Of a DNA stretch of 64,000 nt, positions 2,417 through 55,829 are shown one piece after another. Position 1 is the first letter of the stretch, and every line of letters starts with the position of its first letter. The notes under the pieces were generated by a model. It searched no databases, had not been told where the DNA came from, and saw only the letters and a program-made list of their open reading frames with translations. The stretch lies in contig NZ_JAKFGM010000001.1 of assembly GCF_021502585.1 (NCBI RefSeq), positions 744,001-808,000 on the forward strand, written 5' to 3'. Both the position numbers and the translations under genes were made by a program. This DNA is from Sphingomonas cremea (GTDB lineage Bacteria > Pseudomonadota > Alphaproteobacteria > Sphingomonadales > Sphingomonadaceae).

Positions 2417-2908
2417 ATGGCTGACAAAGCGCTGAGCCTGCAGGATCAATTCCTGAATTCAATTCGCCGATCGAAGGTCCCGGTGACAATCTTCCTGGTG
2501 AAAGGCGTCAAGCTGCAGGGGATTGTCACCTGGTTTGACCCCTTTTCGCTGCTGCTCCGTCGCGATGGTAGCGCCCAGCTGGTCTACAAGCATGGTATCT
2601 CTACCATCATGCCCGCACAGCCGCCCGCTGACCTGGAACTTTCGACAGGTGGGGAAGGGGGCAATGGAAAGAAACCAATGCTTCAGGACCTGTTCCTGCA
2701 AGCGGCATCGCGCGAGCGGGAGCCGATGACGGTATTCCTCGTCAATGGCGTAATGTTGCAGGGCGCAGTGGCGGGGTTCGACCAGTTTTCACTGGTGCTT
2801 GAACGCGGCGGGCAGGTCCAGCTTGTCTATAAGCACGCCATTTCGACCATGCAGCCGGGTCATCCGCTCAATCTGGGGGGTGAAACCAACCCGGGGGACG
2901 ACGACTGA
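2417..2908 (+). CDS. hfq: Tandem-domain Hfq RNA chaperone
   Basis: RNA chaperone that pairs small RNAs with mRNAs. At 163 residues it is about twice a normal Hfq, and two complete Sm domains are visible. The first (about residues 8-68) starts LQDQFLN and ends [10 protein letters not shown]. The second (about 90-150) starts LQDLFLQ and ends [10 protein letters not shown]. Both keep the Sm2 YKH motif and the proximal-face Gln. They are joined by a Gly-rich linker and followed by a short acidic tail. A trimer of this protein could rebuild the six-fold ring; that is inference. It sits between ntrX and hflX, the usual alphaproteobacterial neighbourhood. Confidence 0.93.
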
Positions 2909-21234: not shown

Positions 21235-21375
21235 CGGAGCACTCGCACGCCAGGACCAGGGTCCGGCGGCGTAATGCCGTCGGCGAAGGGGGAAGCCGGC
21301 GAATATCCGGCACTGTGCCCGCAACTGTGAGCCGCTCCAAGAGCGGCAAGTCAGATACCCGCCTTGGCCCGTCGT
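21235..21375 (+). ncRNA. Cobalamin riboswitch
   Basis: An adenosylcobalamin-sensing leader upstream of the B12 import genes. The conserved core is visible as GGGGGAAGCCGGC near 21288, the box CACTGTGCCCGCAACTGTG at 21311-21329, and AAGTCAGATACCCGCC at 21348-21363, which are diagnostic of this class. Ends are approximate. The distance to btuB (about 80 bases) is enough for an expression platform that masks the ribosome site when B12 is bound. Control direction is from family knowledge: B12 represses. Confidence 0.93.
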
Positions 21376-21457
21376 CCGTTTCCCGGCCGGGACCAGCCGC
21401 GGGACGTGGGCCGACCGCGCTTTAAAGGCGTGTGCCTTCCCTCCGTGACGACATGTC

Positions 21458-50983: not shown

Positions 50984-51654
50984 TCCAGCACTCCTTCGTG
51001 CAACCTTACCACCCTGTCCATCTTCGCTGCGAGGCGCTCATTGTGCGTGGCGACCAGCGCAGCGCTGCCCTCGCCGCGGACCAGTGCCAGGAATTCACCC
51101 AGCACCCGGTCAGCCGTCGCCTCGTCAAGGTTGCCGGTTGGCTCGTCGGCCAGCACGAGCGGCGGGCGATTGGCGAGCGCCCGGGCAACCGCGACGCGCT
51201 GCTGCTCCCCGCCCGACAGCTTGGACGGGCGATGGTCGAGGCGCTGGGACAGTCCGAGCTTGCCAAGCAATGACTCTGCGCGAGTTCGGGCGTCAGCTGG
51301 GTCAACGCCATGGATGATCTGAGGCAGCATCACATTTTCGCGTGCATCAAAATCGGGCAGCAGATGATGGAACTGATAGACGAAGCCCAACGTGTCGCGC
51401 CGAAGAGCGGTGCGCCCATCGTCATCGAGCGATGCCGCTTCCTGGCCTGCGATGCGAATCGAGCCTTCGAATCCTCCTTCGAGTAGCCCAACCGCCTGGA
51501 GCAGCGTCGACTTGCCCGAACCGGATGGGCCCAGCAAAGCCACTATCTCGCCCGGCTGCACCGCGAGATCGACGCCGCGCAGCACCTCGATGGTGACATC
51601 GGCCTGGATGAAACTGCGCTTAAGGTCGCGCGTCTGGAGGACCGGTTCACTCAT
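50980..51654 (-). CDS. lolD: Lipoprotein-releasing ABC transporter ATP-binding protein LolD
   Basis: ATPase powering lipoprotein extraction from the inner membrane toward LolA; 224 residues from the ATG at 51654. Walker A is [11 protein letters not shown], the Q-loop lies in [10 protein letters not shown] (a LolD-specific stretch), the signature is LSGGEQQRV and Walker B is LVLADEP. The start overlaps the lolC end by 8 bases, which indicates that both subunits are made together. The Gpx gene overlaps its stop. Confidence 0.95.
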
Positions 51655-52897
51655 AGCGCAGCACCTGGACCGGGTCCGTGTTGGCCGCATTGCGCGCCGG
51701 GAACAGCGTGGCGACATATGTCAGTACCAAGGTCACGGTTACGATTGCCGCGACTTCGAACGGGTCCGTCCGCGACGGCAGCTCAGTCAGGAAGCGAACC
51801 GAGGGATCCCACAGATTCTGGCCCGTGATCAGCTGGATGAAGTCGACCACGCCCTGACGGAAAAAGAGGAAGATCGCCCCGATCAACGCCCCGATGGCGA
51901 TGCCGATAAGGCCGATTGTGAGACCTACGGTCATGAAGATTTTGAGCATCGAGCGCCGGCTGGCGCCCATCGTTCGGAGGATGGCAATGTCGCGCGTTTT
52001 GGCACGGACAAGCATGATCAACGACGAGGCGATGTTGAAGGCCGCCACCAGGATGATGATGCACAACACGACGAACATGGCGATCCGCTCGACCTCCAGC
52101 GCCTCAAACAACGCCGAGTTCATCTGCCGCCAGTCGACGATGATGCCCTTACTCTGAACTAACGGCTGGAGGGGTGCGAGCGTCGGGCCAACCCGATCGG
52201 GATCGTCGACCTGCACTTCGACCATACCGACCTGGTCGCCGAGCATCAGCAGCGTTTGCGCGTCCTGCATCGGCATGATGACGAATGCCTTGTCATATTC
52301 GAAAATACCGACCTCAAAGATCGCTCCAACGGTATAAGTAACGATCCTCGGCACCGTGCCGACCGGGGTCGAGCGGCCTTCCGGGCTGATCAGCGAAATT
52401 TCGCTGCCGGGAAAGGCGCCCAGTGTTTCCGCCAGCCGAGCGCCTATGGCAACACGTCCGCTGCCCGGCGTAATATTGCGCAGGTCTCCGGAAACGACTT
52501 TGCCGTTGAGGACCGGATTTTCCCGGATGTCCTTCAGCGTGTTGCCGCGAACCAGCACGCCTTCGACCCTGCCGTTCGCCGAAGCCATCAAAGGCTGCTC
52601 GATCAGCGGCGTCGCCGACCGGACACCGGGGGTCTTGCGGGCCGCTTCGACAACCTGCTCCCAGTTCGCCAGGCGGCCGTCATAACCCTGGATAATGGCG
52701 TGGCCATTCAGGCCGACGATCTTGTCGAACAGTTCCGCCCGGAAGCCATTCATGACGCTCATCACGATGATCAACGCCGCAACGCCTAGCGCGACTGCGC
52801 CAACCGAGAAGCCTGCCACAACGAAAATGAACCGCTCACCTTTGATCGGAACGAGATATCGCTTGGCGATCATTTTCTCATAAGCGTTGAGGATCAT
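51647..52897 (-). CDS. lolC: Lipoprotein-releasing ABC transporter permease LolC/LolE
   Basis: Inner-membrane subunit of the Lol system, 416 residues, with an N-terminal membrane helix ([21 protein letters not shown]), a large periplasmic domain ([24 protein letters not shown] is the family signature) and three C-terminal helices. Only one permease gene is present; Alphaproteobacteria often use a single homodimeric LolC/E-type (LolF) protein. The start overlaps the proS stop as ATGA. Confidence 0.94.
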
Positions 52898-54216
52898 GCG
52901 GTTAGTCGCTCAAGCGCAGATTCGATCGAAAGTTCCTGCTTTTCCCCCGTGCGGCGATTTTTGAGCTCTACGACACCTGCGGCAAGGCCGCGCGGCCCGA
53001 TGATCAGCTGCCATGGCAGGCCAATCAGGTCCATGGAGCCCAACTTCACCCCGCCCCGCTCGTCGCGGTCGTCATAAAGAGTTTCGATGCCAGCGACGGT
53101 CAATTTCGCATAGATTTCGTCGGCCGCCTTGACCGATGCCTCGTCGTCGCCGCGCATCGTGACCAGCCCGACCTTCCACGGGGCCACAGCCTCGGGCCAG
53201 ATGATGCCATTATCGTCGTGGCTGGCCTCGATGATCGCTCCGACCAGACGCGACACGCCGATCCCGTAGCTGCCCATTTCAGGCGTTACCATCGATCCGT
53301 CGGGGCCCGAGACCTTCAGGCCCATCGAATTCGAATATTTGGTACCGAAGTAGAAGATGTGGCCAACCTCGATCCCGCGGCCCTGGCGTTGACGCTCAGA
53401 AGCCACCTCGGCCCATCGCGCCTCGTCATGGGTCTCGTCAGTCGCCGAATATGTCGAGCTAACCTGCTCGAATAAGGCCTCCAGCCCCGCCGCGTCGTCG
53501 TAGCTTAGGTCCGCCTGGCTCCAGTCGAATTCCTCGAACTTGGAATCGTAGAACACTTCGCTCTCGCCGGTCGGGGCCAAAACGATAAATTCGTGGCTCA
53601 GGTCTCCACCGATGGGGCCAGATGCCGCCTTCATGGGTACCGCGCGAATGCCCATCCGCTGGAACGTCCGAAGATAGGCCAGCAACTGAGTATAGTAGCT
53701 GAGCCGCGCTCCTGCCTCGTCGAGGTCGAAGCTGTATGCGTCCTTCATCAGGAATTCGCGGCCGCGCATCACGCCGAACCGCGGGCGAACCTCATCCCGA
53801 AATTTCCACTGGATGTGATAGAGGGTCCGCGGCAGGTCGCGATAGCTCTTGACGTCACCCTTGAAGATCTCGGTGATCATCTCTTCGTTGGTCGGCCCAT
53901 ATAGCATATCGCGGTCGTGCCGGTCCTTGATGCGCAACATCTCCGGCCCATAGGCGTCATAGCGGCCCGATTGGCGCCACAGATCGGCCGACTGGAGAGT
54001 CGGCATCAGCAATTCAATCGCCCCTGCCCGGTCCTGCTCCTCGCGCACGATCTGCTCGATCTTACTCAGGACGCGCCAGCCGATCGGCAACCATGCATAA
54101 ATGCCTGCGGCAGTCTGGCGCACCAGCCCTGCCTGCAGCATCAGCTTGTGGCTGACAATCTGCGCGTCCGAAGGGCTTTCCTTCATGACCGGGAGGAAGG
54201 ATCGGGAGACACGCAA
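52894..54216 (-). CDS. proS: Prolyl-tRNA synthetase, short alphaproteobacterial form
   Basis: Class II synthetase charging tRNA-Pro; 440 residues, so it lacks the INS editing domain of the 570-residue E. coli form, as typical of Alphaproteobacteria. The start is a TTG giving [23 protein letters not shown], which matches the conserved N-terminus. Motif 2 and 3 regions are [24 protein letters not shown] and [18 protein letters not shown]. It leads the proS-lolC-lolD-gpx unit and has a TAGG-type promoter upstream. Confidence 0.96.
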
Positions 54217-54258
54217 GTGAGGGAACTTTCCGATAAAGTGAGGCAGGAATTGAGCGCT

Positions 54259-54287
54259 GTCCTAGTCAGCGGCCCTCATGAAGGCAA
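54259..54287 (-). promoter_or_regulatory. Predicted promoter of proS
   Basis: On the minus strand: TTGCCT (54282-54287), 17 bases, TAGGAC (54259-54264), giving a short leader of about 35 bases before the TTG start of proS. Same architecture as the rpsB and rpmE promoters. Confidence 0.45.
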
Positions 54288-54385
54288 TCGCCGGCAGTGA
54301 TGTGGCACGACAGTCACAGCTTAACAAAGAATGTGTCGTTCATGTGCGTTTGGGCGTGACAAGCGCCGTTTGGCGGGCGTAGCGC

Positions 54386-54533
54386 TTCCTCCCACGGACG
54401 AGGTCGTCAGGCCGGAAGTCCGGGGAGGAGCCGACGCCTGTCAGGGGGCAAAGGCGCTTCAGAACTTCCAAGGGGGCTGACGAGCAATCGTCACGCAAGG
54501 ACGCCCGGGCTTCTAGCCCGGGCGTTTTTGTTT
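54386..54533 (+). ncRNA. Candidate structured small RNA with intrinsic terminator
   Basis: A gap of 315 bases between proS and the aminotransferase has no coding sequence but shows strong RNA structure. A long stem pairs CCTCCC-A-CGGAC (54388-54399) with GTCCG-GGGAGG (54418-54428). A hairpin CGCCT/AGGCG lies at 54435-54456, and TGACGA-GCAA-TCGTCA with a GNRA loop at 54478-54493. It ends in a terminator with a T-run at 54502-54529. A possible promoter (GTGACA at 54356, TAGCGC at 54380) fits a start near 54387. I do not recognise it as SRP, 6S, RNase P or tmRNA. Ends are estimates. Confidence 0.6.
54502..54529 (+). terminator. Intrinsic terminator of the candidate small RNA
   Basis: A perfect nine-base-pair stem CGCCCGGGC/GCCCGGGCG with loop TTCTA, followed by TTTTTGTTT on the plus strand. 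The T-run is on this side only, so it serves rightward transcription and not the leftward aminotransferase gene. Confidence 0.85.
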
Positions 54534-55680
54534 ATGCGCGGTCGATTTTGCCCAATGCCGCCACGAGCTGCTCGATATCCGCCTCCGTGACATGGAGATG
54601 CGGCGCGATTCGGATTGCATCGCCCCTTCGGCTGACGTGCACACCGTTGGCTGCAAGACTTTGAACGGTATCGGCCGGTGCACCGGGCGGCAAGCTGACG
54701 CCCAGGATATGACCGCAACGAAAGTCACGAGACAGCACGCCGAATCCGAGCGGCTCGATCCGCTCGATGATTCGCTGGTTGGTCTGGCAAATCAGTTCGA
54801 AAACATTACGGATATCCCATTCGCGGAGCTGCTCGAGCGCGGCAATCGCGCCGGGAAGTATGGTGGTTACACAGGTTTCGCCGACATCGAAGCGACGAGC
54901 CCCGGGCCGATATTCGTCGCAATATTCGACCAATCGCGCGAAATCCCCGGCATTTGCCCGCACCAACCAGGTCTCCTCGAGAGGCCGCCCGCCATGCCAC
55001 TGCGGCGCGACATACATGAAGCTGAAGCCATATGGGCAAAGAAGCCACTTGTAGCCGGCTGCCACCATGAAGTCCGGCTGCACCGCTGCCAGGTCGAATG
55101 GCACCGTGCCCAGCGATTGCGTCAGATCGAGGACAAGTGCGGTGCCGAGCCGGCGGCAGGTTTCGCCAATCGCCGCCAGATCAATCCTTGCGCCATCCGT
55201 CCAGTGAGCTGCCGAGAGCGATGCAACGCGTGCGGAGGTGTCCAGGCTGGCGAGTATGGCCGACGTCCAGTCCCCGTTGGGCGGAGTGGGCACGGTCCTT
55301 ATTTCCGCCCCACTTTCTGCCGCGACGCGCCGCCATGCCAGGACGTTCGACGGGAACTCCTGCGCCATCAACAAAATATGGTCGCCTGCGCGCAACGTGG
55401 GTTCGAGGATCCGCGCGGCGGTGCTGATGCCATAGCTGGCGGCCGGGACGATTGCGTAATGGTCCGCCGCTCCACCGAACAGGTCGGCGCAGGTCAGGCG
55501 GAGCGTCTCCGCATCTTCGAAGAAATTTGCGGACGCGCGCTCCCATGGGCGCGATTTCGCCCGCGCCGCCTTCTCCAGAGCCTCTCGCGATCGGCGCAAA
55601 AGCGGCGAATTATAGGCGGTGTTGAAGTAGGCGATCCCGTCGGGCACCTCGAACAGGTCGCGATATTGGCCTATTTTCAT
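54532..55680 (-). CDS. Class V PLP-dependent aminotransferase-fold enzyme
   Basis: Aminotransferase class V protein (cysteine-desulfurase/isopenicillin-epimerase/kynureninase fold), 382 residues from the ATG at 55680; the longer frame runs into the tRNA gene upstream. YFNTAYNSPLL opens the protein. The PLP Lys is in AAGYKWLLCPYG near residue 209, preceded by LDLTQSLGTVPFD with the cofactor-binding Asp, and SAAHWTDGARID. The C-terminal domain ends with RRGDAIRIAPHLHVTEADI. No catalytic Cys loop of desulfurases is obvious, so the reaction is unknown. Confidence 0.88.
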   Translation of the reverse strand: MKIGQYRDLFEVPDGIAYFNTAYNSPLLRRSREALEKAARAKSRPWERASANFFEDAETLRLTCADLFGGAADHYAIVPAASYGISTAARILEPTLRAGDHILLMAQEFPSNVLAWRRVAAESGAEIRTVPTPPNGDWTSAILASLDTSARVASLSAAHWTDGARIDLAAIGETCRRLGTALVLDLTQSLGTVPFDLAAVQPDFMVAAGYKWLLCPYGFSFMYVAPQWHGGRPLEETWLVRANAGDFARLVEYCDEYRPGARRFDVGETCVTTILPGAIAALEQLREWDIRNVFELICQTNQRIIERIEPLGFGVLSRDFRCGHILGVSLPPGAPADTVQSLAANGVHVSRRGDAIRIAPHLHVTEADIEQLVAALGKIDRA

Positions 55681-55752
55681 GGTGCGGCGCCCTACGCCCG
55701 AGCAATGGCATTGGCCATGGCCAGTTGGGCGGCAGTGGCATGGGACAGAAAA

Positions 55753-55829
55753 TGGTAGCGGAGGAGGGACTTGAACCCCCGACACGCGGATTATGATTCC
55801 GCTGCTCTAACCAGCTGAGCTACTCCGCC
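55753..55829 (-). tRNA. tRNA-Met (anticodon CAT; elongator, tRNA-Ile2 possible)
   Basis: A 77-base tRNA with encoded CCA. The acceptor stem GGCGGAG pairs with CTCCGCT, including one G-U pair at the end, and the discriminator is A. The anticodon stem GCGGA/TCCGC holds the loop ATCATAA, giving anticodon CAT. The T arm has GGTTCAAGTCC. It lacks the mismatched 1-72 C-A pair expected of initiator tRNA. Elongator Met is most likely, but a lysidine-modified Ile tRNA cannot be excluded by eye. Confidence 0.92.

Follow-up and report, generated by a model that had tools for sequence, protein, structure and literature searches.

The segment 54391-54529 on the plus strand of the window (the whole 64,000-nucleotide stretch of Sphingomonas cremea DNA that was analysed) is, judged from its sequence and that of its relatives, almost certainly an independently transcribed, structured, non-coding RNA gene. 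The RNA and its homologues constitute a previously unclassified family of a familiar kind, the terminated sRNA. We consider it reasonably probable that the window RNA is the local copy of a Sphingomonadaceae-wide RNA family, acting in trans via its G-rich segments. The first-pass annotation had described an unrecognised structured small RNA here, a description that now has strong support from conservation, covariation, promoter and terminator, and the structural elements that it listed within 54386-54533 were found where it had placed them (Table 1).

Table 1. Predicted features of the RNA gene and its neighbours, in window coordinates
Feature	Position	Strand	Basis
Small RNA, ~139 nt	54391-54529	+	R1/R2 covariance models; 5' end placed from the conserved promoter, +/- 3 nt
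-35-like element GTGACA	54356-54361	+	RTGACA 16-18 nt from a TA-starting -10 in homologous loci
-10-like element GTAGCG (family consensus cTAGC)	54379-54384	+	Comparison of homologous loci
Hairpin P1: CGGAC/GUCCG closing GGUC-GUCA-GGCC	54395-54422	+	Alignment, R2 match
G-rich segment 1 (GGGGAGGA)	54422-54429	+	GGGGA or AGGGA almost invariant in family
Hairpin P2, G-rich apical part GUCAGGGGG, G-run 54444-54448	54430-54455	+	Fold prediction
G-rich segment 3 (AAGGGGG), leads into P3	54470-54476	+	Alignments
Hairpin P3: UGACGA-GCAA-UCGUCA	54478-54493	+	Paired cells in alignments
Intrinsic terminator P4: 9-pair GC stem, UUCUA loop, T-run	54502-54529	+	Two-sided changes, genus and other genera
proS (proline--tRNA ligase), divergent neighbour	52894-54216	-	NCBIfam NF008979
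lolC/E-type permease downstream of proS	51647-52897	-	TIGR02212 lolCE

Genomic context

The RNA occupies a conserved place ahead of the proS-lolC-lolD operon and is oriented divergently from it; in all 34 of the genus loci first examined it is divergent from proS. In those other genera whose locus lacks proS, the gene on the upstream side belongs to a single cluster (30/36), similar in sequence to the lolC-type gene that adjoins proS in the window, so that the locus is most likely the same one as in the window. The downstream side is far less constant. The aminotransferase gene adjoins the RNA in the window and in none of the other loci tested; pyrG, a TonB-receptor-like gene or some other gene takes its place there, often in convergent orientation. 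In the window the 3' end of the RNA abuts the stop codon of this convergent aminotransferase gene, the longest frame of which spans 54532-55785. A tRNA gene at 55756-55829 (minus strand) overlaps the 5' end of that frame and the aminotransferase protein therefore probably begins later than the longest frame indicates. On the other side, the interval that separates the start of proS from the RNA promoter (54217-54355) contains pieces that recur in relatives, including GGCAAT and TGTGGC/GCCACA-like pairs, and these may be the promoter of proS or an operator common to both genes.

Promoter, terminator and coding potential

The predicted promoter emerges from the comparison of loci, since the arrangement TGACA-N16-18-TA is found at a fitting distance in 77 of 101 homologous loci, against a mean of 1.4 in shuffles and 0 in a control region. 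A promoter-like pair had been proposed just before 54386 and this cross-locus comparison indicates that it is real, though a sigma-70 consensus scan of the window did not report the GTGACA/GTAGCG pair. From the positions of the two elements the transcript would start near 54391 and would thus be about 139 nt in length, which moves the start from 54386 and shortens the earlier estimate of about 145 bases. The housekeeping sigma factor would be expected to transcribe the RNA up to the terminator, at about 54529.

The terminator, a plus-strand stem with a T-run, matches its earlier description exactly. The stem (54502-54524) and T-run (54525-54529) are kept in 34/34 aligned genus homologues, with 100% of the P4 cells paired in the 34-sequence alignment, and a terminator is present in every aligned copy (34 genus and 36 other-genera sequences). 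Two-sided changes in P4 occur within the genus and, in other genera, affect 7 of its 11 pairs, so that this element is not only conserved but covaries. Upstream of the U-tail the window transcript is, as had been claimed, devoid of a reading frame: by eye, 54391-54524 contains no ATG, GTG or TTG in any frame.

Secondary structure and covariation

The predicted fold of 54386-54533 has an energy of -83.6 kcal/mol, compared with a mean of -58.05 in dinucleotide shuffles (z -5.8), and none of the 200 shuffles was as stable. As the terminator supplies much of this stability, the real test is the comparison with relatives. A consensus plan was obtained by averaging single-sequence pair probabilities over 36 sequences from other genera, and this recovers P1, P2, P3 and the terminator; plain RNAalifold, run over the full alignment, gives a poor consensus because the length of P2 varies. 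In the MAFFT alignment (A2), 91.7% of cells are paired, against 30-39% when the partners are slid by 1-3 columns, a figure that is favoured because the structure was derived from the same sequences. Two-sided changes are the stronger evidence for the predicted fold. These are seen in 20 of 38 pairs among the 36 other-genera sequences, where shuffles give 9.9 and slid controls 7-11, and the cells with two-sided changes number 76, compared with 27 in shuffles and 11-22 in slid versions. Loss of the stems in relatives would have spoken against the RNA; the stems are instead conserved and covarying.

The individual hairpins differ in how well they are kept. P3 has paired cells at 100% in the genus and 97% in other genera, and the GCAA hairpin reported at 54478-54493 is exact and preserved in 34/34 aligned genus homologues. 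The window P1 is the homologue of a hairpin that reads CGAA...UUCG in other genera, with the third pair changed from A-U to G-C. The long stem first drawn over 54388-54428 holds for its conserved parts, CGGAC/GUCCG and GGUC/GGCC, but its outer UCCUCCC/GGGAGGA pairing is specific to the window; part of UCCUCCC (54387-54393) precedes the likely start, and relatives do not share these outer pairs. Covariation of P2 is seen among the other genera, in helices 4 and 5, and its pairing in the window copy is weak. The second hairpin of the first-pass annotation (54435-54456) is the weakest of the stems; what is conserved in it is the G-rich apical loop.

Distribution in the Sphingomonadaceae

A BLAST search with 54300-54560 gave matches in 34 of 61 genomes, its own included, all of one genus. 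The core shared across these 34 sequences consists of CCAAGGGGGCTGACGAGCAATCGTCACGCAAGGA followed by the terminator, within which GGGGG, most of P3 and the terminator stem show little or no variation. R1, a covariance model of this 3' core built from the genus homologues and matching the window at 54468-54527, is found in 67/71 genus genomes and in all 53 of those of good quality, usually as one copy, and across the family in 113/299 genomes and 43/96 genera. R2 rests exclusively on 36 other-genera sequences, with the window genus left out, and yet it matches the window at 54393-54527 over model positions 1-150 of 150 with 69.7 bits (E 1.3e-16 for the window, or 5.1e-15 for the whole genome to which it belongs). 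R2 raises the family tally to 165/299 genomes and 64/96 genera. The homologues in other genera share a common plan of P1 (CGAAACGCAGGC-AA-GGCCGUGGUUCG), GGGGA, a longer P2, AAGGGGGC, P3 and the terminator. Outside the family, R2 gave 7 matches in a class-wide sample of 385 genomes, with E-values of 3e-4 to 7e-3; as these are weak and about as many as chance predicts, the RNA appears from these searches to be restricted to Sphingomonadaceae in the wide GTDB sense, from Sphingomicrobium to Zymomonas. Some genera of the family carry, away from proS, a clearly divergent subtype of the RNA (loci L217, L218, L226 and L227), marked by GCCAAGGAAUGGGGGG, ACAUGAGGGUUUGG and a P3 loop enlarged by a long insertion, and a separate alignment of this subtype would probably extend the family.

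Relation to known RNAs

As a family, the RNA is absent from Rfam 15. The Rfam search that had been proposed for it was run with all 4227 families, and at the gathering score there was no match at the RNA in the window or in 20 relatives, nor did a permissive scan of six relatives give one. Other loci did yield matches. A cobalamin riboswitch is found in the window at 21242-21380 (plus strand; 71.3 bits, gathering score 31.5), and locus L084 has sub-threshold AaHKsRNA41 matches on both strands of 1234-1420 (39.7 and 35.4 bits), which suggests a palindromic repeat near that locus. The only full-length match in the genome to 6S RNA (RF00013), an RNA that sequesters polymerase, lies away from the RNA locus at C1:455987-456154 (minus strand; locus L206). 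It scores 45.7 bits, just below the Rfam cut-off of 46.4, and automatic annotation would thus miss the 6S RNA of this genome.

Terminated trans-acting sRNAs offer the closest likeness, in that they too have their own promoter, a length of 100-160 nt, several stem-loops, a U-tailed terminator and a single intergenic copy; the window RNA differs in having no Rfam match at the gathering score. The unpaired motifs of such RNAs are usually C/U-rich, whereas those of the window RNA are G-rich. The CCUCCUCCC "cuckoo" sRNAs are alphaproteobacterial RNAs in which a repeated short motif is shown by loops. The window RNA is also alphaproteobacterial and also has a repeated short motif in its loops, but this is of the opposite, G-rich kind. 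Membership was rejected because the CCUCCUCCC motif is not common to the transcripts of relatives, as read by eye; in the window, CUUCCUCCC sits at the likely start or ahead of it, and this too is absent from relatives.

The Zymomonas orthologue is located between proS and pyrG (loci L208, at 2428-2580, and L209) and has a predicted length of ~150 nt. The Zms sRNAs of Z. mobilis include plus-strand RNAs, among them Zms6 (ZM4 454669-454972, 304 nt) (PMC6970203, PMC7064620). When compared by their listed ends, 0 of the 10 Zms sRNAs for which ends are listed match the ~150 nt predicted for the orthologue, and it is possible that the orthologue overlaps a published Zms transcript.

G-rich segments and a possible mode of action

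How might such an RNA act? Its most constant features besides P3 and the terminator are runs of 4-6 G that follow P1, lie within P2 and precede P3, and in the window these are at 54422-54425, 54444-54448 and 54472-54476. The GGGGG of segment 3 is invariant in the 34 genus homologues and near invariant in the 36 other-genera sequences. G-runs number 205 against 139 in dinucleotide shuffles, and in predicted folds they have a mean unpaired probability of 0.50, compared with 0.26 for other G. The Zymomonas copy, although AT-richer, retains three runs of 5-6 G at predicted open positions. That the runs are constant, enriched, open and kept even in Zymomonas favours an action in trans through the G segments, on either C-rich RNA or protein, although in moving from a conserved G motif to a mechanism we infer.

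In the proposed mechanism the stems would keep the three G-rich segments (GGGGA after P1, GGGG in the P2 loop and AAGGGGGC before P3) partly open, so that they could base-pair with short C-rich sequences in mRNAs or in other small RNAs. A tandem Hfq possibly assists via the U-rich 3' tail of the RNA; the presence of such a gene in the same genome had been noted, and it is indeed in the window at 2426-2872 (plus strand), as one frame with two Hfq domains (Pfam PF17209 twice). Base pairing in trans through the G-rich segments is a model to which we would give a little under an even chance. Perfect or one-mismatch complements (12-mer) of the invariant core GTCAGCCCCCTT showed no enrichment in four genus genomes, where each total was below that of the reversed-pattern control. 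In two Zymomonas genomes CCCCCTTG occurs at about twice the level of the reversed-pattern control. Of its 111 distinct sites there, 19 fall close to a possible start of any kind, and few show a Shine-Dalgarno-like sequence; no gene is evidently common to both genomes and there is no convincing or common position at gene starts. A broader and rather unlikely form of trans action is that the three open segments capture C-rich RNA or a G-run-binding protein, with the RNA serving as a global sponge or hub in the Sphingomonadaceae. If this is true, the captured C-rich RNA could include the anti-Shine-Dalgarno-like loops of other sRNAs.

Alternative explanations

An RNA with repeated G-rich motifs on and between its stem-loops could instead bind or sequester a protein, for which the motifs would be docking sites, much as GGA motifs dock protein in CsrB/RsmZ. 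The display of several copies of a short G-rich motif by hairpins is what such docking would look like, and an invariant core that has no enriched complement in the genome also fits it. However, the best CsrA/RsmA match in the genome reaches 15.8 bits against a cut-off of 27, for which reason a CsrB/RsmZ-type sponge was rejected; the most conserved G-run (AAGGGGGCUGA) has no GGA and no candidate protein was found, leaving protein docking as a minority prospect. More doubtful still is an action in cis on the divergent proS-lolCD operon, through supercoiling or transcription factor sharing at the promoter, with the RNA as a by-product. The gene does stay at its locus family-wide, beside proS or, when proS is missing, a lolC-like gene, but it is the body of the RNA (P3 and the G-run) that is most conserved, with covarying stems, and a by-product needs neither.

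That the window RNA ends where the convergent aminotransferase gene has its stop codon might suggest that it regulates the downstream gene, as a leader, an attenuator or an antisense RNA. With a conserved upstream neighbour and a downstream gene that differs among loci and is often convergent, the RNA does not behave as a leader, and as it also carries its own terminator this role is highly improbable. Least credible of all is that the RNA is a diverged copy of a known family (6S, SorX, the threonine leader or tmRNA). The sub-threshold Rfam matches that could be cited for this, SorX (RF02784; 29.1 bits, gathering 46.6) and Thr_leader (RF00506; 31.8 bits, gathering 55), rest largely on the terminator and neither is seen in relatives. 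With SorX the window RNA shares a GC-rich terminator and a preceding hairpin, whereas for Thr_leader the downstream gene is the convergent aminotransferase rather than thr genes, and the 6S-like RNA sits elsewhere in the same genome. The trans-acting small RNA, exerting its effect through the G-rich segments, is the reading that we prefer.

Significance

Sphingomonads are employed to break down pollutants and Zymomonas to produce ethanol, and few described small RNAs were found for either group. Covariance models of the R1/R2 type could become an Rfam family and so bring about the annotation of the RNA. It has been retained in all good genomes of a single genus and, across the family, in two thirds of the genera sampled; its 25-nt core is almost unchanging, and an RNA with such conservation is probably under strong selection.
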